From assembly GCF_002177135.1 (NCBI RefSeq), contig NZ_MWPH01000003.1, positions 620,001 through 684,000 of the forward strand: a stretch of 64,000 nucleotides of DNA, given 5' to 3'. Position numbers and translations under genes: made by a program. This DNA comes from Natronolimnobius baerhuensis. Its GTDB lineage: Archaea > Halobacteriota > Halobacteria > Halobacteriales > Natrialbaceae. The notes below the pieces were generated by a model. It was not told where the DNA came from, did no database searches, and saw only the letters and a list, made by a program, of their open reading frames with translations. This document shows, one piece after another, positions 34,167 through 60,488 of the stretch (within the stretch, counting starts at the first letter, position 1; the number at the start of each line of letters is the position of its first letter).

Positions 34167-35081
34167 TCAGCTCCCGCCGTCGAAGCCAGCGCTCGAGTCG
34201 GGTCGATCTACAACACCCGGCGTCGGTGGCTGGGTGCGTTTGTGTGCTGTTTCCGCCGAACGCCACGCGAGCGAGCGGGCTATCTCAAGGTCAATCGAAA
34301 GCTCCGTCGCTGCCTCGTGAATGGAGGTGTCTGTTTCGAAGAGACGCTCGAGGAGTGGATCGATCACGTCGTAGGGGGCACCAAGCTCACTGGCGTCGGT
34401 CTGGCCGGCCCAGAACCCTGCCGTTGGCTCCTTGCTGACGATGCGGCGCGGAATGCCGATCCGGCCTGCAAGCGCTCGAACCTCGGTCTTGTAGAGGTCT
34501 CCGAGTGGATAGGTGTCTGCTGCACCGTCACCATACTTGGTGAAATAGCCAAGCAGGAGTTCCGACCGGTTCGCTGTCCCGAGCACGAGACGCGAGTGGC
34601 GGTTTGCCGCGTAGTATGCACACACCATCCGCAGACGTGCCGTTACGTTCCCGAGCGCATCGTTTCGCTCAGCAGGGCGCGCGGTTGCCGTCTCTTCACC
34701 TGTCTCGAGTGCGGGGTCGACCGCCGTTTTGAACGCCTCGAGCAGCGGTCGGAGTTGAATCTCCTGAAACTCCATTCCGAGTCCGTCTGCGATTGTCCGC
34801 GCGTCACTCACGTCTGCGTGATCGGCCTTGTGACAGGGGAGTCCAAGTCCGAGGACCTGGTCACCGCCCAGTGCGTCGACCGCCAGGGCTGCCGTGACCG
34901 TCGAATCAATGCCACCGCTCATTGCGACGACGACACCATCAGCGCCCGCGTCGGCGACACGCGTCTGAATGTCGTCGATAATCCGCTTGCGGACATCCTC
35001 GAGCGCCGCGTCGTTGGTAATGAACGATCCCTTCTGTGCACCGACTTCCGGATAGACGAACGTATTGCTTTCTGCAGCCAT
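34167..35081 (-). CDS. nadE: NAD+ synthetase, ammonia-dependent
   Basis: 304 residues. The ATP-pyrophosphatase loop SGGIDST lies at residues 55-61, RLRMVCAYYAANRHSRLVLGTANRSELLLGYFTKYGDGAADTYPLGDLYKTEVRAL follows, and KEPTAGFWAGQTDASELG closes the active site. It converts deamido-NAD to NAD with ATP and ammonia. There is no N-terminal glutaminase domain, so ammonia is the nitrogen source. The start MAAESNTFVYPE is about 50 bases downstream of a TATATA box near 35130. Confidence 0.94.
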   Translation of the reverse strand: MAAESNTFVYPEVGAQKGSFITNDAALEDVRKRIIDDIQTRVADAGADGVVVAMSGGIDSTVTAALAVDALGGDQVLGLGLPCHKADHADVSDARTIADGLGMEFQEIQLRPLLEAFKTAVDPALETGEETATARPAERNDALGNVTARLRMVCAYYAANRHSRLVLGTANRSELLLGYFTKYGDGAADTYPLGDLYKTEVRALAGRIGIPRRIVSKEPTAGFWAGQTDASELGAPYDVIDPLLERLFETDTSIHEAATELSIDLEIARSLAWRSAETAHKRTQPPTPGVVDRPDSSAGFDGGS

Positions 35082-35603
35082 TGTAGTGGATCTCTCTTTG
35101 TTCTCTATCACAAGTAGACAAGCGTCTCGTATATAGGCTTAATCCTTAAACACCTAATAGTGAGAAGATACTCGGCTGGACAGACTGTCTCTTAACTACC
35201 GGCATAGTTCGTTACTGTCAATAACTCCTCCAACACAGACTTGCTCGTAGCAATACCAGCACTTTGGAGTCAGATACCACTCGAGACACCGTTCTACGAT
35301 CTTTTCAATGTGGTTCTGGCACCACGAAAATACCGTTCTCCGATAGAGACCCTTACGACGGCACGACCGTTACCGGCTCTTTCCGGTCGATTGACTGCTC
35401 TAACTCTTCGGCAATTGCACTCCCCCGCGAAACCTGTATCTCACGCACGTACCTTTTTTCTCGTCGGGTTCACTCACTCTGTTCGCGAACCGCTTCTCGA
35501 AAAAATCTACGCTAAAAAAGGCCGCTCACTCACTGACTCACGGGCGGTGCCCGTTCGTCTTGGCGCGGAGCGCCGCGCTTTCGCTCGTTCGCGGGACAAT
35601 ACC
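35082..35603. other. 522-bp gene-free stretch with a displaced gene end
   Basis: No convincing coding frame. Bases 35082-35150 hold the nadE leader and a TATATA promoter (minus strand, about 35129-35136). Bases 35353-35441 are a second copy of the 3' end of the neighbouring PIN-ATPase gene (listed separately). Bases 35442-35600 between the two copies are T-rich, then GC-rich, and include a TAAAAAAGG stretch. Part of it resembles terminator-like runs. Confidence 0.5.
35353..35441 (-). pseudogene. displaced second copy of the PIN-ATPase gene 3' end
   Basis: The minus-strand translation of this stretch ends in the last 29-30 residues of the neighbouring gene's product, from EIQVSRG through the terminal PVTVVPS and stop, at an offset of exactly 251 bases. 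Most of the block is identical, and the differences I see in codons for the shared peptide are silent. Upstream of EIQ the similarity stops at once. This is what integration at a gene end, or recombination with a relative's allele, would leave. Confidence 0.72.
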
Positions 35604-37487
35604 TTACGAGGGAACGACCGTTACCGGCTCTTTCCGGTCGATTGACTGCTCTAACTCTTCGGCAATTGCACTCCCTCGAGACACCTGAATTTCGCCCCCG
35701 CGACTCACCGTCGCCGTAAAGAGGTAGTCGCCGCCGGCTTGGACCTCGACGGTCTCGCCGTGGTTGCCATCAACCGGGATGACGATGTGTCTTGAGGTGA
35801 CCTCAGGAGTAACCATCTGGCCGGCGGTCTGTCCGCCACCGCTCCCGCCGCTGCCGTTGGCGCTTGCACTCCCGGCACCCGCTCCGTAGTTGGGATTCTC
35901 GTCGTGTGTTCGGACGTCGATATTGATCCCGAGGCGGTTTTCGACGTCCGTGATGCGACCGCCACCTTTGCCGATGACACTCGAGATGTCATTTTCTTCG
36001 ACGTAGACGATGGCCTTGTCCTGGCTTTTGAGTTCGACATCGACGTAGCCTTGGGCGATTGACCGAATCTCACGTTCGATCTCCTGTTTGGCGATGCGGT
36101 CGACGCCGGACTCGTTGCCGGGGCCGCCCTCCTCGTCCGTGAGCGGGACGGTGACGACCTGGCGGTTGAAGGTGTAGATCTCGTACTCCGGCTCGCCGGT
36201 ATCGAAGTTGGTGATCTGAATAACTGGTCGCGCGAGGTCTTCTTCGGTGAGTCCAGCGGGCACTTTGACCGTCGTCTTGACGTCGTAGACGGTGTGGACT
36301 TCACCGGCTTCGATGTAGACGACGGTGTCGACGACCTGCGGGATCATCCCGAGTTCGACACGGCCGACGAGACGCTGGAGAGCGTCGATTGCTCTGGTCG
36401 CGTGAACGACGCCGATCATGCCGACGCCCGCGAGTCGCATATCGGCAAAGACCTCGAAGTCGTCCGTTTTGCGGACCTCGTCGTAGATGGTGTAATCCGG
36501 CCGAACCATCAGGAGGGCGTCTGCGGTGTTTGCCATCTCCCCGCCCAGTTCGGTGTACTGCGTAATTTCGGGGCCGACCTGCAGGTCCCGTGGCTTCTCC
36601 ATCGTCTTCACGGAGAAGTCGTGATCCGAAATGTAGCGCGCAACTGCCTGTGCAAACGTCGACTTCCCGGCACCCGGCGCACCCGAGATGAGGACGCCCC
36701 GCTGGTGCTCGAGCAGTCGGTCTTTTAACTCGTCGGCGTTATCGTAGTCGTCGATATCCGTCTGCGCGATTGGTCGGACGGCGGTGATCTCGATGCCATC
36801 CGAGAAGGGTGGCCGACCGACGGCAATCCGGTAATCACGGAACTGGACGATTTTCATGCCCGGCTGTGAGAGTTCGAGAAAGCCATCGGACGATTCCTTG
36901 GCGGCGTCGGTGACCTCTCGGGCGTACTCGTCCATTGTCGACTCCTCGAGTGGCTCGTCGGCAATCGGCTCGTAGCGCATCTCGCCGAGTTCGCCCCGCT
37001 TGGCTTTTGGCACCGCGTCCGTGCGGAGGTGGACGCTCATCGTTTGGTCGTCGAAGTAGTTCTCGACGGCGAGTGTTCCGACATCGACCTCTCGAATCTC
37101 GGGTGCAATGTGTTCGACATCGAGGCCTTTCGCCTGGGCGACTTCAGCCTGGACGATATCGCTCGTCAGGAACGTTGCCTCGAGGTCCTCTGCGAGGTCA
37201 CGGATCAGGGCATCAATCTCGCCTTCGGAGGCGTGGCCACGCTCGATGGCGTTTGGCCGCTCCCCGATGTACTCGAGGTCGATGGTGCCCTCATCGGCGA
37301 GGTCGGCGAGGCGCTGGAGTTCTTCCAGGCCATCCCAGCCGCTCTCGATGCCGTCGTTGGCCTGCGCTTCGAGTTCTGCGACGACGGCTTCCGGCACCGA
37401 AATCATCGCTCCCTCGAACTGCCCGTCATCTATCGTCGCTGAGACGCGGCCGTCGATAACCACGCTCGTATCCGGCACGACGTTCAT
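35604..37487 (-). CDS. PIN domain-ATPase-KH domain protein (PINA type)
   Basis: 627 residues. The N-terminal PIN domain has PDTSVVIDGR (Asp6) and DALIRDLAEDLEATFLTSD acid residues. A PilT/VirB11-like ATPase domain follows with Walker A GAPGAGKST (residues 269-277), the VRPDYTIYDEVRKTDDF Walker B-like segment and GVVHATRAIDALQRL. A KH-type nucleic acid-binding domain lies near 500 (SVIGKGGGRITDVENRLGINIDVRTH), then a Gly/Ser-rich linker and a small C-terminal beta domain. In Sulfolobus this type of protein drives Holliday-junction migration; the role here is inferred. Confidence 0.9.
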   Translation of the reverse strand: MNVVPDTSVVIDGRVSATIDDGQFEGAMISVPEAVVAELEAQANDGIESGWDGLEELQRLADLADEGTIDLEYIGERPNAIERGHASEGEIDALIRDLAEDLEATFLTSDIVQAEVAQAKGLDVEHIAPEIREVDVGTLAVENYFDDQTMSVHLRTDAVPKAKRGELGEMRYEPIADEPLEESTMDEYAREVTDAAKESSDGFLELSQPGMKIVQFRDYRIAVGRPPFSDGIEITAVRPIAQTDIDDYDNADELKDRLLEHQRGVLISGAPGAGKSTFAQAVARYISDHDFSVKTMEKPRDLQVGPEITQYTELGGEMANTADALLMVRPDYTIYDEVRKTDDFEVFADMRLAGVGMIGVVHATRAIDALQRLVGRVELGMIPQVVDTVVYIEAGEVHTVYDVKTTVKVPAGLTEEDLARPVIQITNFDTGEPEYEIYTFNRQVVTVPLTDEEGGPGNESGVDRIAKQEIEREIRSIAQGYVDVELKSQDKAIVYVEENDISSVIGKGGGRITDVENRLGINIDVRTHDENPNYGAGAGSASANGSGGSGGGQTAGQMVTPEVTSRHIVIPVDGNHGETVEVQAGGDYLFTATVSRGGEIQVSRGSAIAEELEQSIDRKEPVTVVPS

Positions 37488-59112: not shown

Positions 59113-60488
59113 TGGCACAGCGCTCGAGTGGGCTGCCATCGACGACGGCGTGGGCGCTTGCAAGCGCTGGCGCTGTTGGCTCGCTCGCACTGATCGTCTT
59201 CGATCCGACCATTGCCCTCGGCGTCGCGTCCGGACTCGTCCTCGCAGCGGTGATCTCAGGATTCGATGGGCCGTACTGGCGTGTCGCCGTCGCAGCGGCA
59301 CTGTTGCCGGTCGCCATTTTCGGCGTGATTGGCGCGATAGCAACTGGCTCGCAGCTACTCACCGGGGGAGTGACGATAATCGCAGTGGTGATCGCCGTCG
59401 CAACCGGGCGCGTCGTCGCCGGCGACATCTCCGACCGCGCGCTCAATCAGTTGAGTGGCGCGTCGGTTACTGCCGGCTTCACCGCCGGTCTCGTTGGACT
59501 CGGCGGACTGCTCGTTGCTGATGCCGGCGGCTGGTCCACACTGGTCGAGGCGACGCTGTGGTTTTCTGGTACGGGGCTGGTCGGCGTGTTCGTCTGGGCT
59601 ATCGCTGGCGCGTTCGCGCTGGCGTGTGCAGTAACGGTCCTGCCCGCTGGCTCGTTTGTCCCACCGACGGATCACGAGTCGTATCTCGAGGTGCGGACCG
59701 GTCTGCTTGCGGCGCTCGCTGTGAGTGTCGTTCTTTTTGGTGTCGGACTTGCGGGACTGATCGTCGCCTCGTGGTACGTCCCGCTGTTCGGTGACGTTCT
59801 CGAGACGATTACAACCAGTTGGATCGTTCGCGGGGTCGGTGCACTCGTGACCGCACTCGGTGTCCTCTTGATCGTCTTTGCGATCAGTGTTCGCCACTCC
59901 TGGCTCAGCATCGATGCGCGACGAAATGCGGCCGTCCCGTTGATTGCTGGGTCCGCTCTTGGCGTCTTCATCGCGTTCACACTCACGCTCAGCGTCAGTG
60001 GTGGCTCACTCGAGACCGTCAGCCCGCTGTTCGGCCTCGGATCGGTCGTTCTCGGCGTCGGCTGGCTGATCGGCCAGGCGGGCCGGTGGGTCGAACGCGA
60101 GAGCAGCGCAGCCAGCGCCGCAGTACTCGCCGTCGCACTCGTCGCTGGCGGTGTCGTCACCGGCGCAACCGTCACCGAACTCACGACGCTCGAGGGGGTG
60201 CGAACCGCAGCGGTGTCGCTCGTCATGATCGCCGCAGGGCTGTTCGCGTACGATCTCAGTCGCTACGGGCGAACGCTGGCTCGAGATATCGGTCCGACTG
60301 CGTCACCGCGCCCGCAGTTCGTTCGCGCCGGCTGGAGTGCGCTGGTTGCCGGTCTCGGCGTTCCCGTCGCCGCGTTCGGACTCGTCGTTGCGACACTGTT
60401 CGCGCCGACGCTGTCGGTCCCGGCGACGGCAGCGGTGATCGTTGCGCTGGGTGCACTCGTCATCGGTACGCGCCTCCTATTCCGCTGA
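59109..60488 (+). CDS. multi-pass membrane protein ending the operon (DUF7519-like)
   Basis: 459 residues with about 12 hydrophobic segments, repeated in pairs (TAWALASAGAVGSLALIVFDPTIALGVASGLVLAAVISGF; VAVAAALLPVAIFGVIGAIATG; and onward). No catalytic motif. The gene's last 12 bases overlap the last 12 bases of moxR on the other strand. The family name is uncertain. Confidence 0.72.
   Translation: MMAQRSSGLPSTTAWALASAGAVGSLALIVFDPTIALGVASGLVLAAVISGFDGPYWRVAVAAALLPVAIFGVIGAIATGSQLLTGGVTIIAVVIAVATGRVVAGDISDRALNQLSGASVTAGFTAGLVGLGGLLVADAGGWSTLVEATLWFSGTGLVGVFVWAIAGAFALACAVTVLPAGSFVPPTDHESYLEVRTGLLAALAVSVVLFGVGLAGLIVASWYVPLFGDVLETITTSWIVRGVGALVTALGVLLIVFAISVRHSWLSIDARRNAAVPLIAGSALGVFIAFTLTLSVSGGSLETVSPLFGLGSVVLGVGWLIGQAGRWVERESSAASAAVLAVALVAGGVVTGATVTELTTLEGVRTAAVSLVMIAAGLFAYDLSRYGRTLARDIGPTASPRPQFVRAGWSALVAGLGVPVAAFGLVVATLFAPTLSVPATAAVIVALGALVIGTRLLFR

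Follow-up and report, generated by a model that had tools for sequence, protein, structure and literature searches.

The nearest described case to the gene-end arrangement reported here is known from fungal mitochondria, in which mobile ORFs encoding endonucleases import foreign C-termini and displace the native ones, with synonymous differences between the two (PMC3630166). The genes whose C-termini are replaced are atp6, atp9, cox2, and nad3 in Glomus and atp6 in Allomyces (PMC3630166). As with those ORFs, the C-terminus that would have been inserted completes the gene, the presumed native one lies downstream, and the differences can be all synonymous (PMC3630166). However, the fungal elements carry a homing endonuclease ORF, whereas the haloarchaeal gene ends carry only a hairpin of ~85 nt, often in tandem arrays and with gene conversion; the linkers between the tails are too short for such an ORF. 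Integrative elements with attachment sites at gene 3' ends likewise leave the gene end directly repeated and the gene whole, but here no integrase or element body is seen, several boundaries occur per gene, and arrays are present. Transcription terminators of Haloferax volcanii contain a T-stretch, with hairpins at some sites as well (PMC7237163). The present gene ends resemble its intergenic terminators in having T-tracts and a hairpin right behind the gene (PMC7237163), yet this hairpin is long and imperfect, has conserved internal mismatches, and is followed by a repeated gene tail. REP and MITE palindromic repeats are also small, dispersed, and structured, but REPs reach high copy numbers, compared with up to 36 matches per genome here; MITEs have terminal inverted repeats with a short target-site duplication, whereas the hairpin is flanked by about 30-115 bp of the neighboring gene's tail. 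No description of a tail-hairpin-tail architecture was found in the literature covered, which excluded most subscription journals.

The window analyzed here is a stretch of 64,000 nucleotides from Natronolimnobius baerhuensis (contig NZ_MWPH01000003.1, positions 620,001 to 684,000), and its relevant features are listed in Table 1. The ATPase gene product matched NCBIfam NF010335 (PRK13764 ATPase) with 857 bits, over the cutoff, and scored 410 bits with the PINA model NF053733, under that model's cutoff of 800. The end of this gene belongs to a repeat pair (35351-35449 and 35602-35700; 99 nt, 90% identity) with a start-to-start distance of 251. The recurrence noted by the initial annotation, at a distance of 251 bases, was confirmed: it comprises 90 coding bases, with the stop codon among them, and seven differences separate the copies, all at third positions and all silent (E1, I2, V4, S5, R6, V27, and P28 of the 30 tail codons). 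That annotation placed some 60 identical bases at the distal end; in fact, the identical core is the central 62 bp, flanked by five silent changes on its upstream side and by two beside the stop. A run of 20 unchanged codons has p = 0.0004 when seven changes are placed randomly over 30 third positions. When 982 gene ends in 1.17 Mb were scanned, repeats this good turned up only at the ATPase locus, and chance origin of the repeat is therefore excluded.

Table 1. Features of the repeated ATPase gene end in the window
Feature	Position	Strand	Evidence
PIN-domain/VirB11-like ATPase gene, 627 aa, 3' end repeated	35604..37487	-	ORF and NCBIfam
Gene-proximal tail: final 30 codons with TAA	35604..35693	-	
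Displaced tail: second copy of final 30 codons, own TAA, 7 silent differences	35353..35442	-	
62-bp stretch identical to displaced copy (35363-35424), read as a gene-conversion tract; holds Ser of QSIDRK	35614..35675	-	
3' UTR, stop to hairpin, CCGCGAACGAG...GTGAGTGAGCGG	35523..35603	-	
Conserved hairpin element, T6-AGCGTAGA-T6 ... A6-GG-TACGT	35439..35522	-	Covariance model, covariation, fold
Downstream neighbor gene, NAD synthetase-like (by reading of the translation), outside the array	34167..35111	-	ORF

Both tails share an Ala-to-Ser change (in QSIDRK), while Ala is found in every other genome listed. Since this change is common to the two tails and absent from the other genomes listed, the 62-bp core is best read as a probable tract of recent gene conversion between them. 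To judge which tail is native, we considered the five differing codons at which one of the tails agrees with the sister genome G001; by reading, the gene end matched at four and the displaced tail at one. The gene end therefore looks native in the window, so that, of the two sources left open by the initial annotation, it is the remnant that appears less native.

The linker hairpin has a constant layout: a 7-base box sits between two T5-6 tracts, a variable inner stem-loop comes next, and A5-6, GG, and the box's complement close the element, directly before the displaced tail. In the window, the base of the 3' arm abuts and slightly overlaps that tail. Within the box, one base pair was C-G in nine, G-C in eight, and U-A in seven of 24 sequences, a three-way compensatory change, and shifting the 3' partners by 1-3 columns reduced the paired cells from 98.7% to 48-82%. 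The window hairpin scored 73.6 bits (E 3.8e-20) with covariance model R1, of which its own sequence is a training row. Its fold of -26.2 kcal/mol (z -1.86 relative to shuffles) is only moderately stable, and an Rfam search with the linker hairpin gave zero matches at E <= 1. A T-tract and hairpin after the stop, as in a transcription terminator, are present, and the hairpin may well act as one. A second, weak match to the hairpin model in the window (59730-59805, + strand; 12.7 bits, E 0.22) is probably due to chance. An integron attC-like hairpin was considered by shape only and set aside, there being no integrase; a guide-RNA reading, with scaffold and 3' guide, was rejected on the grounds that the repeat reaches the stop codon and in many instances enters the UTR.

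The arrangement is not confined to the window. Among 116 usable gene ends of the family, strong tail copies (E < 1e-5, within 700 bp) were present in 30 genomes of 15 genera, and copies at E < 0.01 in 42 genomes of 16 genera; named carriers include Natronorubrum texcoconense, Natrialba aegyptia, Natrinema mahii, and Salinadaptatus halalkaliphilus. In strong or complete copies the 5' boundary is always codon -30 and the 3' boundary is anchored at the stop, across 15 genera. First strong copies begin 65-186 bp past the stop, and the linkers of 64-185 nt that precede them are too short for a mobility gene. A shorter class, starting ~35 bases before the stop, occurs in G042, G045, G053, G079, G104, G105, and G118. 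G001, the one additional genome from this genus, has three tandem tails with the same linker between them. Outside the family, the same arrangement was found in four genomes of two families (G340, G354, and G268 of f3; G159 of f12). Apart from two copies on a separate contig of G036, in which another contig stops just past the ATPase gene, no tail copies away from the ATPase locus were among the matches listed for family genomes.

Several further features were noted around this locus. In G055 and G068 (L073/L057), a 1.6-kb ORF, seen only in these two genomes, lies behind the gene tail and ahead of a decayed displaced tail, as cargo of the array; it has ~500 codons, spans ~190-1710 bp after the ATPase stop, and is lipoprotein-like, not integrase-like, by reading. 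G083 (L173, 2641-6453) contains a 1.9-kb tandem duplication (99.5%) spanning gene end, array, and further downstream DNA, which we set apart as a separate recent event. In G031 (L125), tandem GC-rich units of roughly 75 bp follow the ATPase stop in place of the hairpin array, and genus g16 has weak blastn matches 4-6 kb downstream of the locus. Diverged second PIN-ATPase copies (58-62% identity) occur on other contigs of three genomes (G095:C2:889979-891796, G002:C3:619349-621172, and G007:C2:562603-564417). Translation of the displaced copy from a start in the linker was considered and rejected; by reading, many genomes have a GTG one codon ahead of the copy, but at least six have GCG.

The same design recurs in many genera behind a dozen further conserved genes. 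Model R1, which was trained on linkers of the ATPase gene and gives rough E-values, detected 6-12 hairpins per genome in five genomes. Tail-hairpin-tail arrangements were seen behind purH, hisF, hisH, etfA, ileS, a radical-SAM gene (ending QVVERTPLA), and an aminopeptidase-like gene, as well as dph6, argF, sufS-like, and metallo-beta-lactamase-fold genes, the ileS, sufS, radical-SAM, and aminopeptidase identities being assigned by reading of the sequence. The window's own genome carries such hairpins with tail repeats behind purH, hisH, and the radical-SAM gene. With the ATPase gene excluded, 33 of 47 family hairpins abut a direct repeat (score of at least 16, starting within 12 bases of the hairpin 3' end), nearly always the upstream gene's tail, a share that is biased upward because of the training of R1. 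Mis-paired control loci gave a median repeat score of 8, their few high values being taken as same-gene locus pairs. In other families, hairpins were present in 35 of 42 genomes, and tail repeats flanked 7 of the 30 hairpins read. The tails repeated at these other genes are about 30-115 bp long and begin at varying codons. Since junctions fall at different codons of one gene (two in the ATPase gene and three in the radical-SAM gene), the underlying events appear to recur.

Many hairpins lack any repeat and lie between genes. Some of these apparently adjoin convergent genes or an opposite-strand tRNA, and a terminator role is therefore suggested; two hairpins (L358 in G334 and L376 in G309) abut an apparent tRNA 3' end on the other strand, which hints at bidirectional terminator use. 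At L341 (G097), an 82-bp direct repeat around the hairpin resembles the 5' end of an opposite-strand ORF and not a tail, the sole exception seen. At the radical-SAM gene end, L424 (G047) and L427 (G046) have very short tail-like repeats (~18-22 bp, such as GCGGACACCGGTAGCGTAA) that no hairpin separates.

Genomes with and without the hairpin differ at purH. Without the hairpin, this gene ends in ...GAC TGA, with TGA in 19 of 21 genomes; with it, the gene-proximal end differs and is not TGA in seven of eight (Fisher p = 0.0002), and the displaced tail is the family-typical GAC TGA in most hairpin genomes. In Natrinema mahii (G063), the ATPase displaced tail matches the gene tail of its sister G077 at 86 of 90 positions and its own at 80 of 90, the ATPase gene bodies of the two being 95% alike. 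Because of this purH allele split and the closeness of the G063 displaced tail to G077, the comparison supports import of the gene end at purH and in the G063 ATPase gene. The radical-SAM gene shows no allele split, most of its copies agreeing with their own genome; import is therefore not general. A foreign gene-proximal tail ahead of a native displaced one is thus the pattern at purH and in G063 but was not seen at the radical-SAM gene, and in the window the gene end is the more native-looking. Silent-only differences indicate, as the initial annotation held, that both tails once functioned, and its two-allele view holds at purH and in G063.

The tails of a genome evolve in concert. In 18 of 26 cases, the gene that the ATPase displaced copy resembles most is that of its own genome, and copy and gene are 100% identical in G033, G035, G040, G072, and G083; in intact copies, about 80 of 90 differences from the gene are at third positions. 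When changes were polarized by genus, the copy side had 24, 12, and 7 at positions 3, 2, and 1, and the gene side 14, 0, and 0. The weaker bias on the copy side indicates that constraint on the copies is not tight. Arrays of identical units are common (G041 has five hairpins, 124 bp apart), and their last units retain a decayed UTR and hairpin.

With modest confidence, we consider the displaced tail of the window to be one case of a haloarchaeal gene-end architecture, consisting of gene tail, short UTR, terminator-like hairpin, and second tail copy with its stop, that local recombination at the hairpin produces repeatedly and that is afterwards subject to conversion. The second gene end is thus read as a probable member of a widespread family of recombination scars and not as a one-off leftover. 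DNA ending at the hairpin base would join, via a few matching bases (junction microhomology was judged by eye), to a point inside the coding tail. A cassette of tail, UTR, and hairpin, whose source is either the gene of the same cell or a related strain, would thereby be placed before the older tail, which would be left behind as a scar. Such an event would be tolerated because the gene retains a complete tail. The direct repeats could then swap by gene conversion and unequal crossing-over, giving multi-unit arrays, and exchange between tails would keep them alike within a genome and leave differences mostly silent. Both the joining mechanism and import by homologous recombination are what we infer from these patterns.

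Alternatively, a non-coding mobile element, MITE-like or homing-like, might enter the ends of conserved genes with a replacement tail and push the native tail downstream, a reading that we regard as unlikely although several observations favor it. Both hairpin arms share sequence among unrelated genes, and could be copies of one mobile element or, alternatively, a terminator consensus; in purH hairpin genomes a distinct gene-proximal end accompanies a mostly family-typical displaced tail; insertion points lie inside coding sequence; and Glomus mitochondrial mobile ORFs do exactly this (PMC3630166). In contrast, the hairpin comes with no coding sequence, transposase, or nuclease, tail boundaries vary within one gene with no common target motif seen, and many hairpins are repeat-less and intergenic. 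In its broadest form, a gene-less, homing-like hairpin cassette, class-wide in haloarchaea, would enter essential-gene ends, spread between strains, and supply a working replacement tail; this, too, is a doubtful proposition.

Tandem duplication in cis of the tail and terminator, at a mutational hotspot that the hairpin creates and followed by conversion without import, seems improbable. It would explain the five genomes whose copies are identical to their own gene, and it predicts the decayed UTR and hairpin in the last units. However, it does not account for the purH allele split with its changed stop codon or for the G063 displaced tail matching a sister species, and the silent share in intact copies exceeds that expected of a freely drifting copy.

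Still less probable is selection for a function of the displaced tail or hairpin-tail RNA, as a double terminator or 3' UTR regulator. The structure covaries, its T-tracts match Haloferax termination signals (PMC7237163), and it recurs at the same genes, but most family genomes have no strong tail copy, many copies are decayed by stops or frameshifts, and variation follows codon position, which is not expected from an RNA function.

The reading of the initial annotation, a remnant of a single integrating element with the ATPase gene end as attachment site, is very improbable. The presence of two coding alleles, the direct repeats on either side of a short linker, and the 1.6-kb ORF in G055 and G068 fit it, but the same boundary in 15 genera and two more families of haloarchaea, the multi-unit arrays, and the many genes involved do not. 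Such a spread is what the initial annotation itself had named as refuting its reading, which as a one-off event is thereby refuted. By reading, that ORF looks lipoprotein-like and not like a mobility gene, no integrase was seen, and a search for free tail-bearing elements gave no phage match and one weak plasmid match (58.6%) not tied to the ATPase locus.

Recurrent recombination at the hairpin, the reading that we prefer, would tie a small conserved structure to the ends of core genes being replaced again and again across Halobacteria. If true, haloarchaeal gene ends are replaced or exchanged as cassettes, which would affect gene trees, annotation (through orphan tails), and assembly, as in G036, and would bear on work on terminators, on gene conversion, and on the exchange of genes in polyploid archaea. 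The paired tails may also serve as natural reporters of gene conversion, since each pair provides two marked copies about 200 bp apart within one cell.
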